Shown: piece after piece, positions 1 through 20,047 of the stretch
Layout: the number at the start of each line of letters is the position of its first letter
Position numbering within the stretch: position 1 is the first letter of the stretch
Origin: a virus
Reading direction: 5' to 3' (one strand)
Virus record (IMG/VR): IMGVR_UViG_3300025728_000348
Coordinates: 1-23,295 of that record
Length of the DNA stretch: 23,295 nt
Notes under the pieces: model-generated
Database searches by the model: none
What the model was told of the DNA's origin: nothing
Seen by the model: only the letters and a program-made list of their open reading frames with translations
Position numbers and translations under genes: made by a program

Positions 1-1389
1 TTAGATATGTGGTGGTATTTTTCTAAATGCAGTCGGGGAATCTTCTCCTTGATAATGTTGTAATCGATAAGCTATCTCAAGTAGAGCAATTCGAGAAAAA
101 TATGCTGCATCAGCACACTCTTTTTCAAATGACTGCAAACGATCTACATGGTTACCATGCAAAATCTGTGAGCGTCCATAGTTATATAATTTTGCAATAA
201 CATCCCTTAACTTTATTTCTCTTTTATTTGTTTTAAGTATGTAATTTTCATCCACATCTAATAAGTGACAAATTAAATTCGTTATGCCAACTTTTTTCCC
301 TCCACAAGACAGTATATCAAGGCAAGTCCCAAGTTTTGCTAAAGCAATTGATTCGTTAGTTTCACGCTGGGCTTCAGCATACCATTCCAATGCAGTAGCC
401 CATCGGTTAGCAAGTTGAGGGTATTGATGAGTATCTGGTTGAGATAACCCAGAAAGAATAAATGCGAAACCATCGATAATATTTTTATATTCGTCTAAAT
501 CATCAAGAAAATCAGAACCATTCCTATGTGGTATTCTTTTCGATAAAGTGAATCCAGCAGTAGTTAAATAACCATCGCGGGATTTTATTATTTTATATGA
601 TATAGGTGGCTGTCTGTCTTCATAAAGTGTATTTTGATAAAAATAGTTCTTGTCACCAAATAGAGCTGATAATGCGTCCAAGGTTGTTTTACAGATTATC
701 TTGGATAGCTTTGATGATAATTCGCTCTCAATGTTATTTAATTTTATTGATACTACCGAGTTGCCTGTTTTAGTGAATTCATAGATATCTGATGCAAGTG
801 CGCTAATTGTTTCTTCTTTATTGTTATGTAAGTATTGAATTACATGCTCTTTCCATTTGTAATTTAATTCTTTCTGATTGTAGTGGTTGTTAAGTGTCTG
901 ATTATTAAATTCATTATTTTTAATCCAGTCTTCTCTGTTGTTAATTTCAACTGGACCAATCGTTATTGATCGATGGTGATGTAAAAAAACAGTATTTGCA
1001 GAATAGTGATGGGTGAGTTCTCTTGAGTTCAAGATTATCAGTTCTTCAATTCTTGTTTTTAGATTCTTCTCAATATCTCTCTTTACGTTTTCGGTGTCTG
1101 TATCAGTGTATTCATGGAGTTTGCCAGATGAAAAAAGATTAGCAATGGCATTTCTCATGAATGAATATATCTTTTTTAACTCAGTTTTATATATAGTTCT
1201 GTCTAGATTAGTGAAGATTAATTCGCTAAGCTCAAGCATTTGTATTTTTGCATCTTTGCTAAAGCTTACTTGGTAACCTTCGTCAGACGTAGTAAAATCG
1301 GGGAATGTCATTTCAGACCAGTTGAAATCTTTAGAATGGATTCTAACTAATTCTTTAGTTAGTTTGGTTAATATATCTTCTATGGTCAT
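1..1389 (-). CDS. Accessory protein with C-terminal HEPN-like domain (candidate abortive-infection RNase)
   Basis: A 462-residue protein that I do not recognise as a named family. Near its C-terminus is a helix around residues 346-360 (NESIALAKLGTCLDIL) and then R406-SQIL-H411, which fits the R-x4-6-H motif of HEPN ribonucleases and resembles the ApeA-type HEPN layout. The first 320 residues are polar, mixed helix and strand, with no signal peptide or membrane segment, and could be a sensor part. The gene starts one base after the integrase stop codon on the same strand, so it probably shares the cI-int lysogenic transcript and would be expressed in the lysogen. It is clearly more AT-rich than the phage core, a sign of separate acquisition. 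HEPN proteins in such positions are often anti-phage toxins; that role here is inference. The window begins at its stop codon. Confidence 0.75.
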   Translation of the reverse strand: MTIEDILTKLTKELVRIHSKDFNWSEMTFPDFTTSDEGYQVSFSKDAKIQMLELSELIFTNLDRTIYKTELKKIYSFMRNAIANLFSSGKLHEYTDTDTENVKRDIEKNLKTRIEELIILNSRELTHHYSANTVFLHHHRSITIGPVEINNREDWIKNNEFNNQTLNNHYNQKELNYKWKEHVIQYLHNNKEETISALASDIYEFTKTGNSVVSIKLNNIESELSSKLSKIICKTTLDALSALFGDKNYFYQNTLYEDRQPPISYKIIKSRDGYLTTAGFTLSKRIPHRNGSDFLDDLDEYKNIIDGFAFILSGLSQPDTHQYPQLANRWATALEWYAEAQRETNESIALAKLGTCLDILSCGGKKVGITNLICHLLDVDENYILKTNKREIKLRDVIAKLYNYGRSQILHGNHVDRLQSFEKECADAAYFSRIALLEIAYRLQHYQGEDSPTAFRKIPPHI

Positions 1390-7940: not shown

Positions 7941-8020
7941 TCGTTAATATTCATCCTTATCATGTACATACAGTGTATTTAACCGTGATTTTTTTCTTCA
8001 CACCTTTTACCGATACATGC

Positions 8021-8040
8021 TACTGTGTATTTATACAGTA
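8021..8040. promoter_or_regulatory. LexA operator (SOS box) of tum
   Basis: TACTGTGTATTTATACAGTA has perfect CTGT-N8-ACAG core and perfect TACTG/CAGTA arms, the 20-bp LexA consensus. It lies 18 bp ahead of the tum start, as at the LexA-controlled p95 promoter of 186. GTGTATTTA in the box also occurs 52 bp upstream (7973-7981), but without a second CTG arm. Confidence 0.93.
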
Positions 8041-8058
8041 TCTCGTAGTGGGGGTTGT

Positions 8059-8499
8059 GTGGAAAGAGAACTAAATGAGCACGTTATGATTGAGCGGGTC
8101 GAAATGATTGCGCGCCTGACGGCTGAAGGTGCTTGCCAGGAAAGAGACCGAGAAATCGCATTGAACCTTATAGCGGAGATAGCAAAGGGCAACCTGATGA
8201 AAAACAATAATTTTTCTGTTGTTTTTTCCGCGCCGCCTGTAGATGAAACTTTTGCAAAGATTGGCAATGTGAAAGTAAATATCACGTTAGATAAAGACCA
8301 AAAAATAGGCCAGCCGGTAATTGAAGCTTTTCAATGCGAATTGACTAGGAGAATACAGTCTGTTTTCCCGTCAACGCGGGTTACTGTTAAAAAGGGATCA
8401 ATGACCGGCGTCGAGTTGATGGGGTTCGATAAGGATTCAGACCGCGAAGCACTTGATAGTATCCTTCAAGAAGTCTGGGAAGATGAAAGCTGGCGTTAG
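8059..8499 (+). CDS. tum: Tum-like SOS-induced antirepressor with DinI-like domain
   Basis: Residues 60-146 form a DinI-like domain (CELTRRIQSVFPSTRVTVKK, then LDSILQEVWEDESWR). The N-terminal part (ERVEMIARLTAEGACQERDR and a following helix) resembles the conserved short N-terminal region seen in P2-like genomes. In 186, Tum is made when LexA is cleaved and inactivates CI, which is how the prophage is induced by UV. Position after A and the LexA box support this. I chose GTG at 8059 behind GGGGG because an open ATG at 8017 lies upstream of the operator and would not be on the transcript. ATG at 8086 is an alternative. Calling it simply a DinI family protein is the cautious version. Confidence 0.85.
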   Translation: MERELNEHVMIERVEMIARLTAEGACQERDREIALNLIAEIAKGNLMKNNNFSVVFSAPPVDETFAKIGNVKVNITLDKDQKIGQPVIEAFQCELTRRIQSVFPSTRVTVKKGSMTGVELMGFDKDSDREALDSILQEVWEDESWR

Positions 8500-8521
8500 G
8501 CTCTGAAATTTGTACAAACCT

Positions 8522-8555
8522 TGACCCTATGTTTGATATCATAGGGTCAGTTTTT
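8522..8555 (+). terminator. Rho-independent terminator after tum
   Basis: TGACCCTATG (8522-8531) pairs perfectly with CATAGGGTCA (8540-8549) over an 8-base loop, followed by GTTTTTG. It isolates the SOS operon from the accessory genes downstream. Confidence 0.9.
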
Positions 8556-8574
8556 GTTGGACTGTAGCTATAAT
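8546..8574 (+). promoter_or_regulatory. Probable promoter of the accessory gene pair
   Basis: A perfect -10 box TATAAT lies at 8569-8574, with a poor -35 (GGTCAG at 8546-8551, 17 bp away). It sits just after the tum terminator and 42 bases ahead of the next ATG, as expected of a moron with its own promoter. Runs of AT make other -10 boxes possible (TTATTATAT at 8582-8590). Confidence 0.5.
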
Positions 8575-8616
8575 ATCGTTTGTTATTATATCCAAAAGAC
8601 TACTGGGTAGGAATAA

Positions 8617-9519
8617 ATGGATAAGGCCGTATCAATAGGTTGGTGGAATACAGGGTTATCCCCAGCAGTAAAGAGAGACCGCTCAACTAAGGATGAGTTA
8701 ACAATAGCCTTTGCCCTTATTATCGATATGTTGCTTACTCATCGCGTAGATGTTTTATGTCTTGGTGAGATATCGCCTTTAGATGTTGAGTTGTTTAGTT
8801 TGAGTTTTGCTAATAGTGATTTTTATATTTATGATGGAACATACACAGATGGAAATATAAAGCATGATATGTGTGTGTTTATTAATAAAAATAAATTCAC
8901 GTACATTGATAGTAAAAGTATTATCGAGCAAACATTGCTCGGTAAGATAAGAGCCGGTCAAGAAATCCAACTCATGCATAATGATAGTGGGGATTATATA
9001 TTTTTTTATATTTCTCACTGGCCAATGAGAGGAAACGACACCAATGAGGAAATGCCAAAAAGATATGAGCTTGGAAAAGCTTTGCGTGGAGCCCTCAATC
9101 GGTGTGTTGAAGATAAGTCAGGTAAATATTTTATTTTCTTAGGCGATTACAATGATGACCCATTTAATAAATCGCTTACTCATGCTCTTGGTGCCACAAG
9201 GGATAGAGATTTAGTTCTTAAAAATAGCGCTTTTCTATACAACCCATTCTGGAATTTTATGGGGGCATCAGTTAGCTTCCCATCAACTGACCACAAGTTA
9301 AGCACATATGGGACGTATTACTATAAAGGCGGATCAACTACTCGCTGGCATACTTTTGACCAAATCATGTTTTCGTCATCATTCCTATCCGGTGGGGATT
9401 GGAGTCTTTTGGAAGAAAAGGTTAAAATTATTAACGGTGAAGAGATAAAAGCGTTAGTCACAGGTTCTAAAACACACTTTGATCATTTGCCAGTTATTGC
9501 TGTGATAAAGAGAGGTTAA
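8617..9519 (+). CDS. Endonuclease/exonuclease/phosphatase (EEP) family accessory protein
   Basis: A 300-residue protein with the complete EEP/DNase I-like active site in order: W-N at residues 10-11 (SIGWWNTGL), metal-binding E51 (LCLGEIS), H134 (ISHWP), D177 and N179 (FLGDYNDDP), D248 (FDQIMFSS) and D289-H290 (FDHLPVIAV). It should therefore cut phosphodiester bonds of DNA, RNA or a signalling molecule; the substrate is not evident. No signal peptide or membrane segment. The gene is AT-rich, has its own promoter, and lies in the tum-cos slot where P2-family phages carry genes such as old and tin that exclude other phages. A partner gene follows after 4 bases. An anti-phage effector role is inferred. 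I do not recognise this pair as a named system. Confidence 0.88.
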   Translation: MDKAVSIGWWNTGLSPAVKRDRSTKDELTIAFALIIDMLLTHRVDVLCLGEISPLDVELFSLSFANSDFYIYDGTYTDGNIKHDMCVFINKNKFTYIDSKSIIEQTLLGKIRAGQEIQLMHNDSGDYIFFYISHWPMRGNDTNEEMPKRYELGKALRGALNRCVEDKSGKYFIFLGDYNDDPFNKSLTHALGATRDRDLVLKNSAFLYNPFWNFMGASVSFPSTDHKLSTYGTYYYKGGSTTRWHTFDQIMFSSSFLSGGDWSLLEEKVKIINGEEIKALVTGSKTHFDHLPVIAVIKRG

Positions 9520-9523
9520 TGTA

Positions 9524-9976
9524 ATGGATTTCAAAAATTCGCTGACCGCTGGCTTACAAGCAGCACGAAAAGCAAGAGATAACAAAGAAGAAATACTTGG
9601 TGTAATCAAAGATCTAGGCGACAGTATCGCAGATTACAGCGAAGGTCGTGTATCGCTGGAGATTACGAGCGAAAGAAAACTCGCGACTAATCAAACGGTT
9701 TTAACTGCCGCGGCAAGTGCATTTACAGGCGTTAACCCTTATATCGACTATAAAGCATTATCTCTCATTACAAGGAAAGACCAGGCTAAAGTTAAAGAGA
9801 TTATCGCTGAGTGGCGACTAAATGAATCGGATGGCTATCCATGTGTTATTTCGTATGGCAAGGAAGATGTTAACTGTAGAAATAAAGACATGTTAGTCAA
9901 AGCTTTAAACGAGCTTATGTCCAATGCCAGTACTGGAGAAGTGCTCTTGAAATTAATGAACATTGAAGAAGCATGA
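9524..9976 (+). CDS. Partner of the EEP protein, unknown function
   Basis: A 150-residue protein that I do not recognise. The first 40 residues are helical and charged (KNSLTAGLQAARKARDNKEE, then ILGVIKDLGDSIADYSEGRV); residues 45-65 look like strands; residues 80-100 and the last 30 are helices (DMLVKALNELMSNASTGEVL). No catalytic motif, signal or membrane segment is visible. The start lies 4 bases after the EEP stop codon behind GAGAGG, so the two genes are almost certainly cotranscribed and their products may form a complex, for example nuclease and regulator, sensor or immunity protein. Base composition is less AT-rich than the nuclease gene. Confidence 0.85.
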   Translation: MDFKNSLTAGLQAARKARDNKEEILGVIKDLGDSIADYSEGRVSLEITSERKLATNQTVLTAAASAFTGVNPYIDYKALSLITRKDQAKVKEIIAEWRLNESDGYPCVISYGKEDVNCRNKDMLVKALNELMSNASTGEVLLKLMNIEEA

Positions 9977-9991
9977 TTTTTAGCGGACGGA

Positions 9992-10210
9992 CTAATAAGT
10001 TACTTCGATGATGTTTAGGTTATCAACTGTAGCGTATATTTGAAAAACATAACTATCATCGGCAAAGTTTATACTGGTGATAGTTATATCATTTCCTGTG
10101 ATTTTTCCGTTTCTTAGCTGTGCATGCATCAGGTGCATTGTTTCGCATGCTTCAGGATTGCCCTTTGTGGGTGGGCGTCGCCAGATCTGGCGTGGGTCCG
10201 GAGCTGTCAT
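9992..10210 (-). CDS. Doubtful small leftward ORF beside cos
   Basis: An open frame of 72 codons running toward the accessory pair. The C-terminal 45 residues (NGKITGNDITITSINFADDS and DNLNIIEVTY) read like real beta-rich protein, while the N-terminal part crosses the conserved cos-proximal DNA. It may be a small accessory gene or the remnant of one, starting at an internal Met such as residue 25 or 28. P2 old and tin are also transcribed leftward from this side, so the direction is plausible. No clear ribosome site was seen. Confidence 0.35.
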   Translation of the reverse strand: MTAPDPRQIWRRPPTKGNPEACETMHLMHAQLRNGKITGNDITITSINFADDSYVFQIYATVDNLNIIEVTY

Positions 10211-18242: not shown

Positions 18243-18672
18243 CGCCGTGCCGCAACTGAAAAACAACCCGGATATGCTGCGCCTTTTCGCTGATAACGGG
18301 CATACCGATTCACGACTCGCGAGCTCGCTGTCATTTGAAAAGGTGTATGTGCTGAACGTAGTGGTGACCGACTTTACCGGCGACCTTGATTTGATATTCG
18401 TGCCGGTGCAGGCGTGGCTGCGTGAACATCAGCCGGACATCATGACCACCGACGACGGGCGGGATAAAGGCTTTACCTGGATTATTGATATCAATAACGA
18501 CGATTCGCTCGATATCAGTATCAGCCTGAGACTGACCGAGCGCACGCTCGTCAAAGAAGTCGACGGGGCGCTGCACGTCAGCTATGCCCCTGAGCCGCCC
18601 CTGCCTGAACCGGTGACGCGCCCGATGGAGTTATACGTTAACGGCGAACTGGTGAGTAAGTGGGATGAGTGA
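18205..18672 (+). CDS. R: Tail completion protein gpR
   Basis: A 155-residue protein, the same length as P2 R, which terminates and stabilises the contractile tail at the head side. Typical stretches: LRKALISAVPQLKNNPDMLR, FVPVQAWLREHQPDIM, FTWIIDINNDDSLDISI, and the C-terminal ELYVNGELVSKWDE. The ATG at 18205 lies inside lysC; a longer frame from 18139 is open but would not match P2. Confidence 0.96.
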   Translation: MQKHKSLRKALISAVPQLKNNPDMLRLFADNGHTDSRLASSLSFEKVYVLNVVVTDFTGDLDLIFVPVQAWLREHQPDIMTTDDGRDKGFTWIIDINNDDSLDISISLRLTERTLVKEVDGALHVSYAPEPPLPEPVTRPMELYVNGELVSKWDE

Positions 18673-19174: not shown

Positions 19175-20047
19175 CTAGGTGGGGTTACCCACTGAGTTGG
19201 GTTCGATTCCCTGACCTCGTACCCTCCCCCTGGATATCTTTATTGTTGAGTCCTCCGCTTTCATCTCAGTTTTTATCTGCTCGTCACAAATTAAATAATC
19301 TAGATTATTAGCCTTTATAAGATGTTGAACGTTGATATTTGTTGCGTTTAGCAAGTTTGCATTCCGCATGTTAGCGCCTTCATAGGTAACGGATTTAAAG
19401 TCACACCCTTTTAAAAGGCAACTTTTCATGTCGCTATTTGTAAAAAAACCGCCCTCGAGACTACAGTTTTCAAAAATAACATTTTGAAATTGAACATTAA
19501 ATGCCTTTATGTTTTTTAGCTTGCAGTTTGTGAATTTAACGGTCTTCATTCTGTTGTTTGTAATATTCAGGGCTTGAATTGTGCAATTTTCGAAAGAGCA
19601 TTCTCTGATGTAGGAGTCGCTCATGTTTAAACCGGTTAAATCAGCATCTTTAAATTTAAGGTATTTGATAGTGGACATCTTATCAAGCTCGATTCTAGGA
19701 ACTTGAATGTTATATATGCCTTTGGAATTTAGCTGGCGTATTATTTTCATTTTCATAATATTCGATTCGGGTGACGAATGTTTTGCTAGATTTTCAAGAT
19801 CTTCAATAAGATCGCGAATATCGTCGTTGTTTTGCCTTTTATTTTCAAAATAATAAAGTATCACACCAAGAACAAGGAAATCTAAAATTGATGAATTTGC
19901 ATTAACAAGGAAGTTCTCCATAAACGTGGAATTATAGTTGCCTGTATAAAGAGACAGGCTAACTATGAACCCTGAATATAGAAAAAAGACGCCAATTATA
20001 TATTTCATCTTTTTAATTGTGCGCCAGAATGATGACCATGCTTTCAT
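19175..20047 (-). CDS. Membrane-anchored pentapeptide-repeat protein (moron)
   Basis: A 290-residue protein on the strand opposite to the late genes. Two hydrophobic helices lie at about residues 15-35 (YIIGVFFLYSGFIVSLSLY) and 52-67 (SILDFLVLGVILYYF), then a charged linker, then pentapeptide-type repeats over about residues 125-240 (LKFKDADLTGLNMSDSYIRE, VIFENCSLEGGFFTNSDM, CDFKSVTYEGANMRNANLLN), which form a right-handed beta helix facing the cytoplasm. The gene is strongly AT-rich and interrupts the S-V junction, a known accessory site in P2-like phages. Function unknown; superinfection exclusion or defence is a plausible guess. The last 20 residues (RGRVRGQGIEPNSVGNPT) read through a tRNA-like T-arm sequence and look like non-native extension. 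Confidence 0.85.
   Translation of the reverse strand: MKAWSSFWRTIKKMKYIIGVFFLYSGFIVSLSLYTGNYNSTFMENFLVNANSSILDFLVLGVILYYFENKRQNNDDIRDLIEDLENLAKHSSPESNIMKMKIIRQLNSKGIYNIQVPRIELDKMSTIKYLKFKDADLTGLNMSDSYIRECSFENCTIQALNITNNRMKTVKFTNCKLKNIKAFNVQFQNVIFENCSLEGGFFTNSDMKSCLLKGCDFKSVTYEGANMRNANLLNATNINVQHLIKANNLDYLICDEQIKTEMKAEDSTIKISRGRVRGQGIEPNSVGNPT
19176..19225 (+). other. Possible tRNA 3'-half-like fragment
   Basis: GTGGG-GTTA-CCCAC (19179-19192) could be a variable arm, and GGGTTCGATTCCC (19199-19211) has the T-loop consensus with a GGG/CCC stem. No matching acceptor strand, anticodon arm or D arm is visible, so it is at best a remnant, perhaps left by an integration or recombination event. Confidence 0.25.

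Follow-up and report, generated by a model that had tools for sequence, protein, structure and literature searches.

What are two tightly spaced, AT-rich genes, one for an enzyme of the EEP fold and one for a small partner protein, doing between tum and cos of a 186-type prophage? The question is raised by the window analysed here (the whole 23,295-nt stretch, positions 1 to 23,295 of IMGVR_UViG_3300025728_000348), in which a first-pass annotation had seen a self-contained anti-phage system. Among the best phage matches of the window are Erwinia phage EtG (77% coverage, 88.8% identity) and phage 186 itself (66% coverage, 86.8% identity), and its backbone is of the 186 type. Identity to 186 is 89% up to position 8547, inside the stem region of the terminator that follows tum, and homology is back at 10100, near cos, so that the blastn breakpoints delimit an exchanged cargo at about 8548..10099 (against EtG, they fall at 8561 and 10100). 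Because 186 homology ends at the tum terminator and restarts near cos, the EEP pair replaces 186 orf97, which occupies the matching place and carries in the 186 record the note 'expression from plasmid blocks 186 infection'. This slot between the replication gene or tum and cos is exchanged among relatives, and six of them have other genes in it. It holds one 243-aa gene in EtG, two 243-aa genes in EC-1639, one 69-aa gene in 81EVA, a 69-aa gene plus three opposite-strand genes in phage 613R3 and four annotated genes, on the opposite strand, in E. coli MRSN346647. The E. coli isolate SC487 has an EEP pair between gene A and portal, an interval in which, according to parts of PMC9122126 and PMC9519451, the defence genes of P2-like phages are located. 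The earlier claim that the slot holds exclusion genes is thus borne out both by the orf97 record and by these parts of the two papers.

Several other genes of the window deserve mention. A 72-aa ORF on the minus strand (9992-10210; PHROG 17882, 3.9e-16) spans the right edge of the cargo, its 5′ part lying within sequence common to phage 186. Beside the integrase, an AT-rich gene of 462 codons (1-1389, minus strand), which matches PHROG 38039 (7.4e-92), a family with no function, is likely to be another cargo gene. Between tail genes lies an AT-rich pentapeptide-repeat gene (19175-20047, minus strand; PHROG 12514), which NCBIfam links weakly to HalA, the Hailong effector (46 bits, for a cut-off of 250). 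In phage 613R3, these tail genes flank a gene named YjcF.

How might the pair be expressed? The DinI-like gene tum (8017..8499, plus strand; PF06183, 2.3e-17; phrog_189, 4.3e-79) belongs to the flank, outside the cargo, and a LexA-type operator, TACTGTGTATTTATACAGTA (8021..8040, plus strand), lies upstream of it; this box is an exact match and the counterpart of the annotated 186 p95 operator. With the LexA consensus used, the window has two matches at no more than two mismatches, against 0.36 expected. The tum start given here is the codon listed by the ORF tool, and the true one is probably downstream of the LexA box. After tum comes the terminator that had been noted ahead of the pair (8521..8550, plus strand; an 11-bp stem followed by a T run), which forms the left edge of the cargo and is the counterpart of t95a, annotated as a partial terminator in 186, where orf97 likewise lies downstream of LexA-controlled tum and t95a. 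The pair had also been credited with a promoter of its own; the TATAAT hexamer is there, as a possible −10 element (8569..8574, plus strand), but it has no usable −35 and is absent from the promoter-scan list, and an own promoter is therefore unproven. In a lysogen, expression may come from this upstream TATAAT or from the LexA-controlled tum promoter, through transcripts that run beyond the terminator as the 186 annotation has it. Read-through would tie the module to SOS, and given its position downstream of the LexA box, the cargo may be partly SOS-controlled.

That same position, downstream of tum and a LexA-type box, argues for a reading in which the pair plays a role in the life of the phage itself (replication, SOS induction or host takeover) rather than in exclusion. 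We consider this highly improbable: the pair is sporadic, with a near-full copy by DNA similarity in 1 of 5,426 complete E. coli genomes (a search that diverged copies, such as the one on E. coli plasmid pEC904, escape), the slot is filled differently in the six relatives, and the pair is also found on plasmids and in a filamentous phage.

The first gene (8617..9519, plus strand; 37% GC, against 51% for the window) encodes a 300-aa EEP-fold (DNase I-like) nuclease or phosphatase, with matches to PF19580 (9.9e-15), PF03372 (8.5e-9) and phrog_24714 (2.7e-34). The active-site residues read earlier from its sequence (N11, E51, H134, D177/N179, D248 and D289-H290) are all present where they had been placed, and the active site is complete. 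In a 74-row family alignment, W10, N11, E51, H134, D177, N179, P182, N209, G232, D248, Q249, H290 and P292 are invariant and D289 is at least 90% conserved; YNPFW, GTYYYK and FDQI are family motifs. Comparison with the E. coli copy L001 shows purifying selection (Ka 0.16, for a saturated Ks of 1.9). The structural model (pLDDT 93.7, 61 sequences) has Nocturnin as its best solved relative by Foldseek (E 3.6e-16), while PDE12, CNOT6L, Nocturnin, DNase I and TDP2 tie in VIA-align (Z about 22.6-23.3). The window enzyme has no NCBIfam match at E 1, and so none to the ExeM/NucH or ExoIII nucleases; among its relatives, at 0.001, the ExeM/NucH model matches 5 of 74 (best 2.2e-5) and xth 4 of 74 (best 5.2e-8). 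By fold and catalytic residues the protein is a member of the EEP superfamily, with a predicted phosphodiesterase or phosphomonoesterase activity. As modelled, the fold would suit a DNase, an RNase, a deadenylase or a nucleotide phosphatase alike; the enzyme is probably a nuclease acting in the cytosol, and its substrate would be DNA or RNA rather than a nucleotide.

In the 50 structural matches shown (Z 21-23, 226-258 residues aligned), the EEP fold covers residues 1-300, so that a receptor or translocation domain could not be accommodated. This speaks against a bacteriocin-like nuclease with its immunity protein, a reading that is barely credible even though a small protein encoded after the enzyme, on ColRNAI-type plasmids, would fit it.

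The second gene (9524..9976, plus strand; 40% GC, against 51% for the window) starts 4 bases after the enzyme stop, and the description of two AT-rich ORFs in this arrangement was accurate. Its 150-aa product had been taken to be of no recognised family, which proved wrong, since it is a member of PHROG 10179, whose function is unknown (2.3e-9; the match comes in two stretches that cover most of the length, the best being residues 50-147). Among 89 partner relatives, at 0.01, 73 match PHROG 10179 and 38 match PHROG 24185. For the window partner, Pfam gives nothing at E 1 and NCBIfam a lone match at chance level (HpnN, 12.7 bits, cut-off 751.85), while among its relatives Pfam matches are limited to single members at 0.004-0.01. 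In the model (pLDDT 93.0, 77 sequences), a long N-terminal helix (3-38) is followed by a sheet with a short helix (59-68) and two C-terminal helices. The N-terminal helix and a GYP motif (G104-Y105-P106) are conserved, the most conserved residues being P106, G104 and G10 and the least conserved segment 54-72. As for the enzyme, selection is purifying relative to L001 (Ka 0.20, for a saturated Ks of 2.8). The partner model matches no PDB structure at E 0.001 or better and the best PDB match of its sequence has an E of 0.086. A Mediator subunit (VIA-align Z 7.4 and 7.2) and CapZ (about 5) were set aside as partner folds, being common arrangements. Six partners (of L035, L111, L113, L119, L120 and L150) are extended at the C-terminus by long Ala-Lys-Pro-rich, histone H1-like tails, which the window partner lacks.

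The EEP gene and its partner form a real module. Among 131 EEP clusters at 90% identity, the partner adjoins 103 of the 104 that score at least 140 bits (a line drawn after viewing the cluster list) versus 2 of the 27 lower-scoring ones (L157 and L158), and in the lone exception, L010, it lies beyond the point where the circular plasmid record begins. These relatives were gathered by EEP sequence, except L001, which was found with the DNA of both genes; as the relative query and profile were built from 11 EEPs (set A2) that all have a partner, the sampling favours the partner-linked branch. Relatives came from alignment-based scans, one of which retained the best 80 of 506, while single-protein pattern scans returned none. 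The partner frame is at least 120 aa long in 99 of the 103 linked clusters and short or broken in four, namely L064 (40 aa, frameshifted), L006 (106 aa, interrupted), L021 and L029 (88 and 83 aa, both near contig ends). The enzyme comes first in 102 of the 103, L038 having its partner upstream, with the order swapped and the linkage kept. Most downstream partners (77 of 102) begin −8 to +11 bases from the enzyme stop, 24 overlap further when read from their first start codon, and L006 alone is 98 bases away.

The linkage holds from the other side as well. A partner-first search took four genomes as centres, and the partner profile matched 5 of 398 genomes in the family of the Pseudomonas centre, 5 of 394 in the order of the Serratia centre, 4 of 399 in the order of the Burkholderia centre and 5 of 175 in the genus of the Acinetobacter centre; a nineteenth match, L172 (E 7e-4, inside an 822-aa frame), was dropped as chance. 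An EEP gene is adjacent in 17 of the 18 bacterial loci, a count that includes the four centres as well as L187 and L188, which are near-copies of plasmid loci already counted (13 of 14 without the four centre genomes). In L191 there is a stop inside the matched partner frame. The eighteenth locus, L165 (also L192), from the order of Serratia, has the partner without an enzyme, as judged by tblastn with 74 family enzymes over the surrounding 8.5 kb. The self-contained two-gene module seen by the first-pass annotation is supported from both sides, and also by plasmid pEC904 (3,066 bp), where the pair, with an interrupted partner, makes up the whole set of annotated genes.

A quick tree was built from 130 EEP rows (105 with partner, the window's own row left out); in it, EEPs with a partner fall on one side of one branch (support 74), which requires 1 change against a shuffled mean of 23.3; none of 500 shuffles was as low. 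Enzyme and partner distances are correlated (r 0.82 over 72 pairs, the maximum of 1,000 permutations being 0.16), which shows co-inheritance, not contact. Broken genes occur in both directions, with an intact enzyme beside a broken partner in L064 (frameshifted) and L006 (interrupted), the reverse about equally often in L004 and L148 (one lineage), and both genes broken in L044 and L062. Some of these few cases may be sequencing errors, and since they go both ways there is no asymmetry favouring an antitoxin. In L157 and L158 (4974-6422), what comes after a distant EEP (89 and 96 bits) is again a GYP-motif protein, of 141 aa, and the family may accordingly be wider than counted. Klebsiella plasmid pKpvST101_7 (L008, 8379 bp) has one intact pair and fragments of further EEP and partner copies.

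Where else does the pair travel? Judging from record names, its carriers belong to at least five named phyla (Pseudomonadota, Myxococcota, Spirochaetota, Planctomycetota and Candidatus Electryoneota). P2-like phages are among them: gene A and portal are found on either side in 9 of 177 loci scanned, and portal, downstream only, in 8 more. The pair is also found in a filamentous Vibrio phage, in an Acinetobacter phage with an FRG gene after it, in Acinetobacter genomes and plasmids, which carry it whole, and in E. coli, Klebsiella and Edwardsiella on 3.0-3.5 kb plasmids. In two Acinetobacter plasmids (L013, 1934-2956; L014, 3234-4148) the EEP gene is immediately preceded by one with an Abi-family annotation, with a 14-base spacing in one and an overlap in the other, which makes a three-gene variant; Abi_2 was confirmed in L013. 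A scan of 118 of the 173 script-picked neighbour genes (43 of the 46 loci of the genome collection) gave by Pfam four integrases, two portals and an otherwise mixed set. By PADLOC at 1e-5, 132 models matched, including reverse transcriptase, TIR, 2TM and methyltransferase, and each in at most 2 of the 118 genes, so that no defence family is common among neighbours; as there is no control set, no neighbour enrichment is claimed.

Carriage by very small plasmids with little else annotated is what speaks for an addiction (toxin-antitoxin) module that retains the prophage or plasmid and has no anti-phage role. We regard this as improbable, first because the 186-type and P2-like slot serves exclusion genes, and second because addiction leaves unexplained the copies of the partner that some phages carry without the enzyme, IME-AB2 (described below) having no integrase in its annotation.

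These solo copies are the strongest hint at function, with phages holding the controlling half of a pair of their host genus. Among viral structures, the partner is best matched by a 115-aa protein from Acinetobacter phage IME-AB2 (E 1.7e-4), assigned by size and profile (profile E 1.7e-16) to the gene at 18290-18637 of JX976549. The protein occurs in 58 phage records, all from Acinetobacter (GenBank and RefSeq copies counted apart), and in 56 of these a single place covers at least 80% of the protein. The window enzyme finds relatives in six phage records (three of them from Acinetobacter), all different from these 58. A profile test of seven of the solo-partner records, some of which are probably the same phage, found the partner in all seven and the enzyme in none, while in two of two control records the enzyme profile finds its gene. 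Phage and bacterial partners align in a profile-profile comparison (98.7%, E 4.6e-16, 112 columns, 15% identity), with the phage copies missing about 33 residues of the variable middle and retaining the conserved N-terminal helix and the C-terminal part. The IME-AB2 group is presumably virulent. In viral contigs, the Acinetobacter phage protein has six matches, in contigs of 44-45 kb. BLAST against named phages gave no solo partner for the window partner (at 1e-5) or for a Klebsiella partner, and only Synechococcus phage S-H9-1 (E 0.4) for a partner from an Acinetobacter plasmid; because such searches also missed the Acinetobacter phages, solo copies may exist in other phages. A match in a Brevundimonas phage (Pseudomonas partner as query, E 0.05) was dropped, as the strand has no annotated gene there. 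Occurrence of the small gene without the nuclease, raised earlier as a point against a defence module, is thus found in 1 of 18 bacterial loci and otherwise in one Acinetobacter phage group, where it would have the look expected of a counter-defence protein.

We propose that the pair is a prophage exclusion module in which the partner binds and controls, and most likely restrains, the EEP enzyme, a reading that we hold to be about evenly balanced between right and wrong. The first gene would provide an EEP-fold enzyme, probably a cytosolic nuclease, and the second a small protein that would bind and control it. In a lysogen, the partner would most likely keep the enzyme inactive; upon infection by another phage, the enzyme would be freed or triggered, nucleic acid would be cut and the infection would fail, unless phage-borne copies of the partner were to keep the enzyme restrained. 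We infer that (i) the pair excludes phages, (ii) its two proteins bind each other, (iii) the partner is an inhibitor and not an activating or targeting factor and (iv) the solo phage copies are counter-defence proteins. In favour of exclusion are the near-obligate linkage, the co-inheritance, the invariant active-site columns, the replacement of orf97 in a slot used by exclusion and defence genes, the carriage by 3.0-3.5 kb plasmids, the Abi_2 gene that immediately precedes the pair in an Acinetobacter plasmid and the enzyme-free partner of Acinetobacter phages. Against it are the enzyme-first order, contrary to most type II toxin-antitoxin operons, the absence of antitoxin-like asymmetry among broken genes together with the partner without enzyme in L165, the lack of a common defence family among neighbours and the many substrates of EEP enzymes, the best structural matches including NADPH and RNA enzymes.

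The main rival turns the role of the partner around, making it a subunit that the enzyme would require for activation, sensing or targeting, with the short phage copies acting as dominant-negative decoys. Such a role agrees with the place of the enzyme gene, first in 102 of the 103 linked clusters, and with L064 and L006, where an intact enzyme adjoins a broken partner; the histone H1-like tails of six partners may bind nucleic acid and the variable middle (54-72), in which the phage copies miss about 33 residues, could be a recognition surface. That these copies keep the helix and the C-terminal part fits plain inhibition equally well, which is not direct counter-evidence, and we find an activating partner somewhat unlikely. 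Returning to a restraining partner, a broader version of exclusion can be put forward as a tentative possibility, namely that the pair is an unnamed anti-phage system of many phyla, made of an EEP nuclease and an inhibitor of unrecognised fold that Acinetobacter phages would have captured and trimmed in its middle for use as anti-defence.

Should this multi-phylum reading be true, system and counter-system would come from one protein family. An exclusion role would put the EEP fold of DNase I, deadenylases and Nocturnin at the core of a dedicated phage-exclusion pair. It would also give a function to PHROG families 24714 and 10179, for both of which none is known, and the pair may explain the content of some cryptic plasmids of 3 kb. 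The solo phage partner makes the idea directly testable, by mixing one protein with one enzyme.

Is the pair new? The two window proteins have no component match in PADLOC-DB 2.0.0 at E 1; scanning 74 EEP members (the window's partner being the only partner scanned) gave two models with one member each, at 0.005-0.006. No system name for the pair is found in PADLOC, NCBIfam or Pfam, which agrees with its earlier designation as undescribed. Among the papers listed by literature searches, none describes it in its title or the opening of its abstract, or in the passages on nucleases and phosphatases of PMC9122126, PMC9519451 and PMC13092281; it may be listed in supplementary tables, notably among the 169 P2-slot systems of PMC9122126. 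The term 'EEP' stands for early exponential phase in part of PMC12724215 and for a phage name in part of PMC11341870, not for the enzyme fold. EEP domains are known from a prokaryotic immune system, ARMADA type II (YprA helicases), in which, according to part of PMC12458937, they sit in a large helicase and are predicted to be inactive, whereas the window EEP is stand-alone with complete active-site residues.

With the EEP superfamily (Nocturnin, PDE12, CNOT6L, TDP2, ANGEL2 and DNase I), the window enzyme shares fold and catalytic residues, but identity is 11-18% and its branch is a separate one, tied to a small partner. P2 old and tin and 186 orf97 share the position of the pair, as prophage cargo between gene A (or tum) and cos. 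OLD is an ATPase-Toprim protein, and Pfam finds nothing at 0.01 in 186 Orf97, unlike in the window enzyme. Type II toxin-antitoxin and colicin-immunity pairs are similar in joining an enzyme to a small, tightly linked protein through touching or overlapping genes. Most type II toxin-antitoxin operons begin with the antitoxin, however, while here the enzyme gene is first, and the partner differs from both kinds in having no PDB fold match at E 0.001. Phages may encode solo antitoxins, as T4 does with Dmd, which Acinetobacter phages carrying the partner without the enzyme recall; the difference is that their protein is a shortened homologue of the partner itself, with a putative inhibitory role. 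As a kind, a slot-borne exclusion pair is therefore known, whereas its members here, an EEP enzyme and its partner, are new.
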